Assembly: GCA_017440565.1 (NCBI GenBank)
Contig: JAFSHA010000064.1
Location: 1-35,203 of the forward strand
DNA: 35,203 nucleotides
From: Eggerthellaceae bacterium
GTDB taxonomy: Bacteria > Actinomycetota > Coriobacteriia > Coriobacteriales > Eggerthellaceae
Reading direction: 5' to 3'
The translations under genes and the position numbers were made by a program. The notes under the pieces were generated by a model. It was not told where the DNA came from. It saw nothing but the letters and a program-made list of their open reading frames with translations, and did not search any database. Of this stretch, positions 3,624-10,629 are shown in pieces (position 1 is the first letter of the stretch; each line of letters begins with the position of its first letter).

Positions 3624-5494
3624 TCGTCATCCCCCTCCTCCGCATCGGCAGCTGGCGCGGCGTTGCGCGGCGCCTCGGGCATGTTCAGGCGCACTGCGCC
3701 CACGGCCACGTCGATGGCGCCGATCACCTCGCCAAGCGCATCCCCCGGCGCGACCATGGGGTACACGTTCTGCTCGCGCGAAATGGCCACGTCAAGAAGG
3801 TAGGGCCCTGGCGCGGCAAGCATGCGCGCAATGGCCGCGGGAACGAGAGTCGGATCTTCCACGCGCTCGCCCTGCCAGCCGTACGCGTCGGCCAGCTTCA
3901 CGAAGTCGGGGTTAGGCGCCAGAAGCGTAGACGAGTAGCGCTCGCCATAGAACAGGCGCTGCCACTGACGCACCATGCCAAGGCAGCGGTTGTCCATCAC
4001 CATCACCTTGACGGGAATGCCGTTGATGGCCGCAGTCGCCATTTCCTGGCTGTTCATCTGGAACGACCCGTCGCCGGCCACGCACACGACGGCCTTCGCG
4101 GGGTTTGCCACCGCAGCCCCGATAGCCGCCGGGAAACCGAAACCCATGGTTCCCAAGCCGCCGCTCGAGAGGAAGCTGCGCGGGCATTCGCGGTCGATGA
4201 ACTGGTTCGCCCACATCTGGTGCTGCCCCACCTCGGTGACCACGATCGACGCGTTGGGGTCAAGCTGAGCGGAAAGCTCCTTCATAACCAGCTCGGGCAC
4301 GATTTCCTCGGGCGCGTCGCCGACGTTGGGATGGTAGAACGGATAGCGCTCGCGCCACGCCTCGATGCGCTTGAGCCATGCGTCGGTGCGCGGGGCGAAG
4401 GCCGCTTTCTCCAGACGCTCGACAAGTGCCGCGAGGACGCCCTTCAGGTCGCCCACGATGGGCACCGCACAGGGAAGGATCTTCCCAATCTCGGCGGGGT
4501 CGATGTCGATGTGGATGACCTTGGCGTTCGGGGCGAATTCGTCCACGCGCCCCGTAACGCGGTCGGAAAAACGCGCGCCCGCGGCAATGATGAGGTCGCA
4601 CTCGGTGATGGCCAAGTTGGAGTACTTCGCGCCGTGCATGCCAACCGGCCCCAGGTTCATGGGGTGGCTCGCGGCAAGCGCGCCCTTGCCCATGAGCGTG
4701 GTGACCGCCGGAATGCCCGCCAGTTCGATGAGGCGCTCAAGCTCAGGCGTTGCCTCCGAGATGCCCACGCCGCCGCCCACGACAAGAAGCGGACGGGCGG
4801 CCTGCGCGATAAGCTCGCACGCTGCGCGAATCTGGCGCGCGTTGCCGCGATACGTAGGCTTGTAGGAAGGAAGGTTCACCTCGTCAGCGTATTCGAAGGT
4901 CATCGAAGCGCCCGCGACATCGGAAGGCACGTCGATGAGCACCGGCCCCGGACGCCCCGTCACCGCGATATGGAAGGCCTCGCGAAACGTCGAGGCAAGT
5001 TCGTCAACCGACTGCAGAAGGAAGCTGTGCTTGACCACCGGCATGGTGATGCCCACGATATCGGACTCTTGGAACGAATCGGTGCCGATAACTGCGCGCG
5101 GAACCTGGCCGGTGATGACCACCAAAGGCACGCTGTCCATGTAGGCCGTCGCAATGCCGGTCACGGTGTTGGTGGCACCCGGGCCGCTTGTCACCACCAC
5201 CACGCCGGGCTTGCCGCTCGAGCGCGCGTAGCCGTCAGCCATATGAACCGCACCCTGCTCATGACGCGCGAGCACGTGCGTGATCTGGGTGGAATCGAAC
5301 AGCGCGTCGTAGATCCTAAGCGCCTGGCCGCCAGGATAGCCGAACACCACGTCGACACCCTCGGCTTCAAGCGCGGCGACGATAGCCTGGGCGCCCAGCA
5401 TGACGCACCCCTGCTTGGGGCCCTTGCTGCCCAAGCCGCGCGGCGCGCCCATGACGGCCGCGCTGCGGCACCTATCCTCGGTCTGACTTGCCAT
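3620..5494 (-). CDS. ilvB: Acetolactate synthase large (catalytic) subunit
   Basis: Thiamine-diphosphate enzyme that condenses pyruvate with pyruvate or 2-ketobutyrate at the start of valine, leucine and isoleucine synthesis. All three domains are visible: the pyrimidine-binding domain with FGYPGG and the catalytic glutamate E79 in LARHEQGAVHMADGYARSSG; the central FAD/cofactor domain with the MGKGALA region; and the diphosphate-binding domain with CVAGDGSFQMNSQE. It has 624 residues, slightly long because about 30 residues precede the usual start of homology (MLGAQAIVAAL). The ATG at 5494 is kept because GAGGAGG lies 10 bases upstream. The C-terminus ends in an acidic, alanine-rich tail. It sits 55 bases after yacP and overlaps ilvN by four bases. 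Confidence 0.95.
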   Translation of the reverse strand: MASQTEDRCRSAAVMGAPRGLGSKGPKQGCVMLGAQAIVAALEAEGVDVVFGYPGGQALRIYDALFDSTQITHVLARHEQGAVHMADGYARSSGKPGVVVVTSGPGATNTVTGIATAYMDSVPLVVITGQVPRAVIGTDSFQESDIVGITMPVVKHSFLLQSVDELASTFREAFHIAVTGRPGPVLIDVPSDVAGASMTFEYADEVNLPSYKPTYRGNARQIRAACELIAQAARPLLVVGGGVGISEATPELERLIELAGIPAVTTLMGKGALAASHPMNLGPVGMHGAKYSNLAITECDLIIAAGARFSDRVTGRVDEFAPNAKVIHIDIDPAEIGKILPCAVPIVGDLKGVLAALVERLEKAAFAPRTDAWLKRIEAWRERYPFYHPNVGDAPEEIVPELVMKELSAQLDPNASIVVTEVGQHQMWANQFIDRECPRSFLSSGGLGTMGFGFPAAIGAAVANPAKAVVCVAGDGSFQMNSQEMATAAINGIPVKVMVMDNRCLGMVRQWQRLFYGERYSSTLLAPNPDFVKLADAYGWQGERVEDPTLVPAAIARMLAAPGPYLLDVAISREQNVYPMVAPGDALGEVIGAIDVAVGAVRLNMPEAPRNAAPAADAEEGDDE

Positions 5495-7044: not shown

Positions 7045-7719
7045 CTACTCTGCATTCGACGCAAAACGGCTGCTCAAGGCGATTTCCGGCAAAGCGGCGG
7101 GATCATCGATCATAAACGTAGGAGCGCAGGCGGAAAGATCCTCGATCGAGAACATGCCCCAAGTTGCAGCGACCGTCGCACAGCCGGCGGCGTTTCCGGC
7201 CATGATGTCGTAGGGGCTGTCGCCAACGTACATGCATGCAGCAGGATCAAGGCCCATGAGCTCACACGCATGCAGCACCGGGCCGGGAGCCGGCTTGTGC
7301 TCGGGAAAGACGTCGGGTGCCACCACGAACTCCATGAAGCGCGCGATCTCGCACACGTCGAGCCCGCGCTGTGCAAGCGCCTGGCGCTTCGACGTTACCA
7401 CCGCCATGCGCACACCCGCCCGATCAAGCGTCTCGAGTACTTCCGGCACGCCGGGAAACGTTTTCACCTGCGCGTCGTGAACGGCATGGTTGTGCTCGCG
7501 GTACACCTCGACCAGCTTCTCCTGCAACGCGGGGTCGTCCGTGAAATCGCGCATCTGCACGTCGAGGGGCTGGCCCACCTTCGCAAGCAGCTCTTCGTCG
7601 GGGACAACGCGCCCGAGCACCTCGCGCGTAGAATGCCGAAACGAGGACAGAATAAGATCATGCGTATCAAGCAGCGTGCCGTCCAGGTCGAACAGCACCG
7701 CCTGTATGGGCTGGGTCAT
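7045..7719 (-). CDS. HAD-family hydrolase, phosphoglycolate phosphatase / PpaX-like
   Basis: A 224-residue cytoplasmic phosphatase of the haloacid dehalogenase superfamily. Motif I is VLFDLDGTLLDT (nucleophile D11, acid-base D13), motif II is MAVVTSK, motif III is the lysine in HKPAPGP and motif IV is YVGDSPYDIMAG. The helical cap between motifs I and II places it in subfamily IA with Gph, PpaX and PgmB. The substrate cannot be decided from sequence; phosphoglycolate or pyrophosphate are the usual guesses. A GAGGAGG sequence lies close before the ATG. It is followed by 165 bases of non-coding DNA before rlmB and preceded by the repeat-rich gap, so it may be transcribed alone. Confidence 0.85.
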   Translation of the reverse strand: MTQPIQAVLFDLDGTLLDTHDLILSSFRHSTREVLGRVVPDEELLAKVGQPLDVQMRDFTDDPALQEKLVEVYREHNHAVHDAQVKTFPGVPEVLETLDRAGVRMAVVTSKRQALAQRGLDVCEIARFMEFVVAPDVFPEHKPAPGPVLHACELMGLDPAACMYVGDSPYDIMAGNAAGCATVAATWGMFSIEDLSACAPTFMIDDPAALPEIALSSRFASNAE

Positions 7720-7889: not shown

Positions 7890-8064
7890 AAGTTATGTTC
7901 AAAAAGCGCATCCTTGTCGGCTGAATGCCCCCTGATCGGGCTGTTTTTTCCGACAAGGATGGCATTTTTGAACGCAGAAGGAACCCCGCGCCCGACAAGG
8001 ATGCGATTTTTGAACACAGAAGCCTTCCCCCGTCCGACAAGGATGCGATTTTTGAACACAACTT
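7890..8064. repeat. 175-bp element with 31-bp terminal inverted repeats and internal tandem copies at 42-bp spacing
   Basis: Four copies of one unit (core CCGACAAGGATGCGATTTTT followed by GAAC) are visible. Copy A (about 7890-7920) is inverted; copies B (from 7950), C (from 7992) and D (7034+1000, ending near 8064) point the other way. A and D are near-perfect inverted repeats: counting the AAGTT at each outer edge they pair over 31 bases with two mismatches, so they bound the element. B, C and D start exactly 42 bases apart, with about 30 conserved bases followed by 12 variable ones. A and B could also pair as a stem of about 24 bases with three mismatches around a 29-base loop. No target-site duplication is evident. 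It could be a miniature mobile element, an array of protein-binding sites, or structured RNA. Confidence 0.8.
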
Positions 8065-8080
8065 TTTGGCGCGCAGGAAA

Positions 8081-8106
8081 CCCCCGCGGAATCGCTTCCG
8101 CGGGGG
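8081..8106 (-). terminator. Strong GC hairpin, candidate terminator of the surface protein gene
   Basis: A perfect 11-bp stem (CCCCCGCGGAA paired with TTCCGCGGGGG) around the four-base loop TCGC, about 64 bases past the stop codon of the surface protein gene. On the minus strand it is followed by only a short T tract (TTTCC), so it may need help from the downstream repeats to stop transcription efficiently. Confidence 0.6.
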
Positions 8107-8169
8107 TCCTAAGAAAGGAAGGCTGCGCGATATCTGCAGGCCTAGCGTCGGATCACAACATCCACGCGC

Positions 8170-10614
8170 TTAGCGTTGACGGTTGTTGCGCCTGGTAAGA
8201 GCCTCAAGCGCAACCGCAACCGCGCCTACGAGCACGAGAGCCAGAACCGCCCGCCAAGGCGACGAATCGCCCGTCTGGGGAATAACCACCGGCGCGGAGG
8301 GCGCGGGACCCTCGGGCTCCTCGCACGTTTGGGGAACGTCCGGAATCTCAGGATCGGCAGGCTTGTCCGGCACGTCCGGAACATCCGGCGTCACAGGAAC
8401 GTCGGGGTCATCCGGAACGACCGGCGGGTCAACCGGGGGCACCGGGATAGGCTCGTTGGCAATGCGGAAGCTTCCCTCGGCATCGCCCGTTGCGAACACA
8501 GCGGAACCCGCCGCATCGCTCACGTCAGTGTCTCCGTAAGAAACGGCGACAGCATAGCTGCCTTCAAGCGGATAGTAACCCTGAGCCGGCTCGGTCTCAA
8601 CCAGCACATAAGCATGCCCAGAAGGAACGTTCGTGTAGCTCACAACACCTTCCGCATTGGAGACGACCGTCATGTCGGCCACCTGCGGGCGTTGGGTCAG
8701 CCCAGCCGAAGCGGCTTCAGCTGCCTTGCATACAGGACAGTTCTCGCTATGGGACAGCTCGAACGAAACGCCGGCAATGGGATGTCCCGTAACCTTATCG
8801 ACCTTGACGAAGCTCAAGGTCCCGTCAAAGCCCTTCACCACGGGAATGGGAAACTCCACGGGATCGTTCCATTCACCTGCGGTTTTGTAGTCAAGAGAAG
8901 TGGTGCCATTGGTGGGAACGTCGCTTCCGAACTCAAAGGCGGCCGCCTCGTTGGCCAGGCGTACGCGGTACTCAAGCTCATAACGATAGCTACGCGCACC
9001 CGCTTCATCAGTCAGCACCTGGTAGCCCGAATCGGCCAAGTTCCAGCTGATGGCGTTGTCGCGCACTTCGAAGGAGGCGGAATTCTCAAGCGGCTCTTCC
9101 GCAGTGGAAGCGCCCGCCTGCCCGACCAGGCCCGTCGCCGGCTTGCCAGCGACATCGTAGAAGTACTGGAACTCGACGTTTGCGCCCATGGGGTCGGTCA
9201 CGTACGCGTCCTCAAGCGGAAGGCCCGACGTTGCCTTGATGTCGGCCAAAATGCCCTCGAAAGCAGCCCGCAGCTCCTCAAGGTTGTCGCCGTTAGCGTA
9301 AGGCGTGATGCCCTCGCCAAAGCTCGGGCCACCCGCGATGTCCTCGGCCAGCCAGGTTTCGTAAGCTGCCGGGTCATCCGCCGCGCCAATGACGTAAGAA
9401 TCACTTGCACGGTCAACTATCGAGAAGGTGCCGGTTGCGTGGTCCACGTACTCCTGCACGGTCTGCGAGCCGATGGCAATGCCCACCGAGAATACGTTGA
9501 TTCCCGAAGAGGCCGACTTCGCCTCAGCCGTGCCCGCCGCGTCCCCGCCAGACTTCATGGCCGCGGCAGCTTCGGCGGCACGCGCGGCCGCCTTGTCGCT
9601 GTAGCTGGTCCCGTAGGTGCACGGAAGCCCCAGCACCTCGTCGGCAAAATAGCCGTCGGTACCCGCCTTGGCAGGATCGTAGGCGCCCGGCTCGTACGGG
9701 TCGAAGCCCTGGATGGATTCATCGCTGGAAACGTTTCCCTCGATGGATCGGTCCACGTAGGTGGTCGGGAAGCCGTCAGTCAGGAATACGACGTACTTGT
9801 GCGCCGCATCCAGCTGGTCAAGGGCGTTCTTCGCCAGCAGCAGGCCCGCTTCCATGTTGGTGAAGCGCACACCGCTGGGGCTGCTCGGCGCCGTGATGGC
9901 CCCGATGCCCGACTGCAAAGCCTCGATGCTCTCAGCCGAGACAACCTGCATTCCCAAGCCCTCGGCCCACTGAGCGTTGGTGTTGAAGGTCACCACGCCC
10001 AGCATACGGTTAGGGCTTAAGCCCTCGCCTTCGCAGTACTGGCGAATGAACTCGGACGCTGCCGTTTGAGCATTCGCCAAGCGCGACGTGGTGAAGCCCG
10101 CGTCGCCGGGCGCACGACCGGCCTCGTCATCGTTCATAGTGTTGGAGACGTCCATGACGATAACCACCGCTGTGGAATCATCATGAACGGGTTCTGTCAC
10201 TTCAACCACAAGCGTGATATCGAAGTAGTTCTCGATGTCGGTAGGCTCGATGGTCTTGCCCACCGTCACCTCGACGTTACCCGCGCCCGTGCCCGACGCC
10301 GTTCCGCCAACGCTCACTATTTGCTCGCTGTTTTCAGCGGCGGCTGGCACAACCTCTTCGCCAGAAGCCACTTCGATTGCGGAAGCATCCTCGGCGGATT
10401 CAGCGGAGTCGGCAGGCGCAACTCCCTCGGCAGCTTCACCGAAACCGGCGCCCTCGATGATCTCGATTGGCTCCGCGATCCCTTCGGCCACAACCTCAAT
10501 CATGGGAGCCGGCTCGTCCAAAGCCATCGGCGGCCCTTCGGCAGCCAGCGCCACGCCCGGCGCCAAGGCGGTTGCCACCATAAGGCCAAGCAAGCCCATA
10601 AGCGGTTTTCTCAT
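8170..10614 (-). CDS. Secreted VWA-domain surface protein with SpaA-like domain and sortase signal
   Basis: An 814-residue protein probably anchored to the cell wall. An N-terminal signal peptide (about 1-25, ending ALAPGVALAAEG) precedes an acidic, low-complexity stretch. A von Willebrand A domain follows (about 148-430) with metal-site motif DVSNT (155-159) in place of the usual DxSxS, and VVFLTDGFPTTY as its later acidic strand. After a linking region, a SpaA/Cna_B-type domain (about 595-725) starts FVKVDKVTGHPIAGVSF, with a CPVC pair inserted near 626-629. Then comes a proline/aspartate-rich wall-spanning linker, the sorting signal IPQTG (778-782), a hydrophobic helix and a basic tail. 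The architecture resembles tip adhesins of sortase-assembled pili, but no sortase or backbone pilin is in the window. The ATG at 10614 has AGGGGTGA just ahead; a GTG at 10620 is the alternative. Confidence 0.88.
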   Translation of the reverse strand: MRKPLMGLLGLMVATALAPGVALAAEGPPMALDEPAPMIEVVAEGIAEPIEIIEGAGFGEAAEGVAPADSAESAEDASAIEVASGEEVVPAAAENSEQIVSVGGTASGTGAGNVEVTVGKTIEPTDIENYFDITLVVEVTEPVHDDSTAVVIVMDVSNTMNDDEAGRAPGDAGFTTSRLANAQTAASEFIRQYCEGEGLSPNRMLGVVTFNTNAQWAEGLGMQVVSAESIEALQSGIGAITAPSSPSGVRFTNMEAGLLLAKNALDQLDAAHKYVVFLTDGFPTTYVDRSIEGNVSSDESIQGFDPYEPGAYDPAKAGTDGYFADEVLGLPCTYGTSYSDKAAARAAEAAAAMKSGGDAAGTAEAKSASSGINVFSVGIAIGSQTVQEYVDHATGTFSIVDRASDSYVIGAADDPAAYETWLAEDIAGGPSFGEGITPYANGDNLEELRAAFEGILADIKATSGLPLEDAYVTDPMGANVEFQYFYDVAGKPATGLVGQAGASTAEEPLENSASFEVRDNAISWNLADSGYQVLTDEAGARSYRYELEYRVRLANEAAAFEFGSDVPTNGTTSLDYKTAGEWNDPVEFPIPVVKGFDGTLSFVKVDKVTGHPIAGVSFELSHSENCPVCKAAEAASAGLTQRPQVADMTVVSNAEGVVSYTNVPSGHAYVLVETEPAQGYYPLEGSYAVAVSYGDTDVSDAAGSAVFATGDAEGSFRIANEPIPVPPVDPPVVPDDPDVPVTPDVPDVPDKPADPEIPDVPQTCEEPEGPAPSAPVVIPQTGDSSPWRAVLALVLVGAVAVALEALTRRNNRQR

Positions 10615-10629
10615 AATCACCCCTATCAG

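Follow-up and report, generated by a model that had tools for sequence, protein, structure and literature searches.

The 35,203-nucleotide stretch of Eggerthellaceae DNA analysed here (the window) carries at positions 7890-8064 a 175-bp palindromic element that is non-coding, has a GC content of 50% and is flanked by a HAD-hydrolase gene (7045-7719, minus strand) and a pilin-like/VWA surface-protein gene (8170-10620, minus strand). A first-pass annotation of the same DNA had called these 175 bp gene-free, and indeed no credible gene was found within 7890-8064 and the stretch is intergenic. That annotation had further described outer copies of a repeat unit, inverted over 31 bases with two mismatches, and additional copies inside the ends. 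Both observations are borne out: the arms at 7890-7920 and 8034-8064, 113 nt apart, are 31-nt inverted repeats with 29 of 31 positions complementary (94%), and direct copies begin at 7950 and 7992. The element is richer than this earlier description, consisting of symmetric arrays of one 24-bp unit, present four times, in steps of four helical turns around a centre (42 and 42 bp on the plus strand). Specifically, the following features were mapped:

7890..7920, minus strand: left terminal unit, a 31-bp terminal inverted repeat with GAACATAACTT pointing out (repeat search; perfect core match)
7921..7949, no strand: centre between the arms, 29 bp (unit mapping)
7950..7973, plus strand: first (inner) right-arm unit (repeat and pattern searches; PWM score 35.4)
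7992..8015, plus strand: second right-arm unit, 42 bp past the first (repeat and pattern searches; PWM score 38.0)
8034..8064, plus strand: right terminal unit, starting 42 bp past the second and forming a 31-bp terminal inverted repeat with GAACACAACTT pointing out (PWM score 38.0)
8080..8107, minus strand: separate hairpin ACCCCCGCGGAA/TTCCGCGGGGGT, outside the element (inverted-repeat search)

The hairpin is likely the terminator of the adjoining surface-protein gene.

A dispersed family in one genome

The host assembly (2.41 Mb, 172 contigs, 95% complete) contains many relatives of the element. Used as a query, it returned 56 matching pieces on about 20 contigs; the unit YCKACAAGGANGNNNTTTTTGAAC(ACAACTT), allowed up to three mismatches, has 56 matches and none for the reversed control (pattern CCGACAAGGATGNNNTTTTTGAAC: 31 forward and 25 reverse matches, with 0 and 0 for its reversed control). 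These matches resolve into 18 two-armed elements, located in the window and on C17, C19 (two), C31, C41, C61, C65/C135, C65 (second), C71, C104, C107 (two), C115, C120, C128, C130 and C132, and three truncated or degenerate ones (the C41 end, C155 and C63). C65/C135 is counted once, being either a single locus split over contig ends that overlap or a duplicate that is nearly identical. Both of these contigs start with the same 385 bp of element-bearing sequence in opposite orientation and at 98% identity (L014 1-385 and L024 1-385), which would reflect an overlap left unmerged in the assembly or else a variant strain. On C63 (L026 3755-3815), near a contig end, a diverged subfamily, GTTCAAAAATCGCGTTTKGGCGGA, is represented by two direct units with a 41-bp step.

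The first-pass annotation had looked for support in many copies with the same ends, and some 20 further elements are present in the host genome; its counter-possibility, a repeat that occurs only here, fails against the 56 unit matches. The search for the core that it proposed had a divided outcome, with many copies in the host but none of the family in other Coriobacteriia. Specifically, no array was found in 60-120 relatives including the sole same-genus genome, these relatives giving chance-level single matches only, and across 398 genomes of the class (host included) the matches outside the host were isolated and carried one mismatch. The exact pattern gave 18 isolated single matches in unrelated phyla among 84,980 GTDB species genomes, which is chance level; IMG/VR viral contigs yielded 11 isolated matches and no family, and plasmid and phage collections no match. 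In 93 kb of readable sequence sampled from the same-genus (sister) species no such inverted repeats were found, and its best PWM match, which falls within a stretch that appears to be coding, scores 19.8 bits, a value bordering on chance. The family is therefore restricted to one bacterium among all genomes searched, where species-private means private among the other species searched, since the nearest records of the host may be missing from the collections.

Within the host, the elements are intergenic at nearly every locus, often 15-100 bp from a gene end, and several lie downstream of genes or between convergent genes. The neighbouring genes are functionally unrelated and include an aldo/keto reductase, a HemA-like gene, DegV, a kinase, a radical SAM gene, MarR, a pilin-like gene and a shikimate kinase. 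The copies on C31, C41, C61 and C132 (subfamily A) share 94% identity over 166-168 bp with unlike left flanks, which points to recent copying of the whole element. Additionally, C61, C132 and the C41 end have a common right flank that runs into a second, unrelated dispersed repeat, so that these three do not represent independent insertions on the right side.

Stacked units and helical phase

All two-armed loci have the same polarity, with minus copies on the left, plus copies on the right and GAAC pointing outward. Each arm holds one to four units, which follow one another in steps of 41 or 42 bp (39 bp once), and C17 carries an extra unit copy 105 bp further out. Of 26 spacers, all but one have a length of 18 or 19 bp (overall range 16-19 bp), and adjacent ones are duplicated in some arrays. 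Most unit positions are 95-100% conserved, unlike the spacers, whose inner members share about 33% identity (non-redundant, equal-length spacers). In many copies the terminal unit reaches out to CGAAGTTRTGTTCAAAAA, which gives the family common ends. Many elements also contain an AT-rich central dyad of the type TTATTCYACAWAT...ATWTGTRGAATAA, nearly perfect in C120 and retained in shortened form in subfamily A. By eye, the centres of C130, of the second C65 copy and of subfamily A might hold decayed inner units at the 42-bp position; their weight-matrix scores are not above background.

The centre gap, measured from the innermost minus unit to the innermost plus unit, takes values of 54, 64, 86, 118, 128/129 and 138 bp across the family, the window element having the shortest (54 bp from unit start to unit start). 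Taken modulo 10.5 bp per turn, the gaps cluster (Rayleigh R 0.95, p 0.0004 over distinct classes), and their phase gives p 0.011 over the four classes left when multiples of 42 bp are removed. Together with the 41-42 bp steps, these few independent values suggest that all units lie on one face of the helix. It is mainly this phasing, with its few independent classes, that leads us to propose that the units bind protein.

Unit variation in the window and at all other loci falls mostly at what would be third codon positions of a peptide Y-K-D/E-A/G-x-F-E-H-N. A coding reading was rejected, as the 41-bp steps break the frame and no frame is open through most elements.

Arrays of operators or nucleoid sites, on which a host protein oligomerises along one helix face and which are selected after insertion as regulatory or chromosome-organising sites, would fit the near-invariant units set among diverged spacers at constant 41-42 bp steps, the whole-turn centre gaps and the central dyad of many elements. 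We nevertheless regard this as unlikely: the neighbouring genes are unrelated, several elements are found behind a gene or between two convergent ones, the sister species lacks the family, and the subfamily A copies, 94% identical but unlike in their left flanks, call for the entire element, rather than a mere site, to have been duplicated.

Folding and possible inversion

As single-stranded DNA, the element at 7890-8064 folds at -44.1 kcal/mol (z = -6.6 against dinucleotide shuffles), and very stable stems occur in all members examined. Additionally, the outer left box of an element resembles its own outer right box more closely than those of other elements (p 0.002, or p 0.011 without near-identical copies). 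Both properties would fit arms that act as RNA, in the manner of BIME, ERIC or BOX elements, where the transcribed arms pair into a long duplex and so attenuate or stabilise the transcript. Selection for paired RNA is, however, unsupported, since RNAalifold returned unfavourable covariation terms (+1.9 and +0.7) and compensatory changes occur in only 8 of 49 and 1 of 50 pairs. Such a stem needs neither whole-turn spacing nor direct stacking of boxes, and no Rfam family matched the window element at E <= 1, which leaves an RNA-level role distinctly unlikely.

The same symmetry raises the question whether the centre is a phase-variable segment, turned round when the inverted arms recombine. Perfect or near-perfect inverted repeats do surround a short, often AT-rich centre, and some contigs (C65/C135, C41 and C71) end in or near elements. 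Yet the centre is often a dyad itself and offers no evident promoter or gene to flip, the neighbours are often 3' ends, and contig breaks are expected at dispersed repeats, so that we judge inversion very improbable.

Insertion marks and candidate enzymes

The first-pass annotation had reported no target-site duplication, and none was found at the window element here. Across 17 elements no consistent duplication was found either, which may reflect loss by decay; a 5-bp AAGTC flank repeat at C41 is compatible with chance. At the two loci compared for empty sites, gene order relative to the sole same-genus genome is lost. A search of the host for the Y1 and rve transposase families found one gene of each, an IS200-type Y1 (C12) and an IS3-like rve (C22); no units were found near either gene, and no unit pair was seen flanking a transposase gene in the host.

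The Y1 gene bears on a further explanation, in which a RAYT tyrosine transposase would have spread these as REP/REPIN-type repeats. Most copies of the unit have the GTAG motif, CCTTGTAG, which would suit this explanation as well. Against this, the motif is replaced by GTCG in the units of the window and C128, the unit itself forms no hairpin, and the GTAG-adjacent spacers lack significant self-complementarity (p 0.13-0.24). Furthermore, the Y1 protein resembles a regular TnpA of the IS200 type, and no units lie beside its gene. Spread by a RAYT enzyme is accordingly an extremely improbable account, and REP/RAYT identity was rejected on the lack of a unit hairpin and of a unit-flanked RAYT gene.

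Relation to known elements

In CRISPR arrays, direct repeats on a single strand alternate with spacers of roughly 26-72 bp, and cas genes are found close by. The family resembles them in its repeats of about 24 bp and its spacers of constant length and mostly different sequence. It differs in that the spacers are 16-19 bp long and neighbouring ones are sometimes duplicated, each arm has at most four units, and the arrays occupy both strands around a centre at about 20 loci. Spacer length and the arrays on both strands rule out a CRISPR identity.

The closest known kinds of element are MITEs and the BOX elements of pneumococci. Like MITEs, the family is short (below about 600 bp), non-coding, strongly base-paired, dispersed and intergenic, with terminal inverted repeats, no transposase gene and many dispersed copies with the same ends at 18 two-armed loci. 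It departs from them in showing no target-site duplication at 17 elements and no related autonomous IS among the Y1 and rve genes searched, and each arm carries as many as four copies of its terminal repeat, stacked at a fixed interval. In BOX elements of Streptococcus pneumoniae, the inner module boxB is unlike the ends boxA and boxC (PMC3049150). These elements are likewise modular, intergenic and folded, with variable numbers of tandem inner modules between two ends (PMC3049150), whereas here a single unit serves as both end and inner module and is mirrored on the two arms; this comparison is one of architecture, not of sequence. REP, BIME and REPIN sequences (PMC3733652) share the dispersed extragenic palindromes, the mosaic arrays and, with most units here, GTAG. 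The present family differs from them in that its unit is not a self-contained hairpin, no unit-flanked RAYT was found and its restriction to one species is extreme. Because target-site duplications were not found and a partial search gave no IS partner, we file the family as a variant of the MITE/BOX kind, not as a member; it would be an unusual form of the small mobile repeats that many bacteria are known to carry.

A model for the family

The available data are best explained by species-private, dispersed, non-coding palindromes that are probably non-autonomous mobile repeats in the style of MITEs or BOX elements, equipped with protein-binding boxes. This explanation starts from what was observed: the elements are dispersed, share an architecture and a spacing, lack coding capacity, sit between genes at nearly every locus and are absent from the other genomes searched. 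Also in its favour are the strict polarity, the common ends, the near-identical subfamily A copies and the likeness of the outer boxes within an element. It would add that the boxes bind a protein, that the binder is a transposase and that the family spread by transposition. In this model, the common unit would be a box some 24-31 bp long to which a protein binds. The outermost boxes would serve as terminal inverted repeats, and towards the centre more boxes would follow at intervals of four helical turns (41-42 bp), all on the same face of the DNA. Boxes phased in this way could promote cooperative binding and bring the left and right arms together. The likeliest binder would be a DNA-binding recombinase or transposase acting in trans, which may have spread the element into intergenic sites. 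As to the miniature mobile or palindromic element suggested by the first-pass annotation, the palindrome and the dispersed copies stand, while mobility itself we infer; the searches returned no target-site duplication, empty site, autonomous partner or matching transposase.

More tentatively, and with some doubt, the family might constitute an undescribed class of element, in which one box stacked at four-turn intervals on both arms forms a phased nucleoprotein scaffold that is species-private and spread by a recombinase. Such a scaffold may be transpososome-like or chromosome-organising.

These findings indicate that a poorly studied lineage possesses a family of dispersed palindromes of its own, whose anatomy is unusually regular and in phase with the helix. 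For a very short mobile element to pair its ends, the DNA has to bend, and the whole-turn centre gaps of 54-138 bp could preserve a natural trace of this constraint. Strains might be typed by means of the family, and it could point the way to a transposase or DNA-binding protein so far unrecognised in Coriobacteriia.

Other small repeats

The host genome contains further dispersed sequences. The second, unrelated repeat, some 115 bp long and bounded by TTAAACCAGAATTGACA...TGTCAATYCTGGTTTAA (for example, L013, on C61, at about 4295-4410), occurs at no fewer than eight places, including C61, C41, C132, C8, C125, C167 and C31. It often adjoins the first family, and it accompanies duplicated copies of one gene in either orientation. 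At L009 6375-6453, a tandem GACGTGACAAAGGGA is followed by a 28-bp inverted repeat, CGTGACAAAGGGACAGGTCGTTTGTCAC, whose arms match perfectly around a centre of 23 bp and which possibly represents a third small repeat family.
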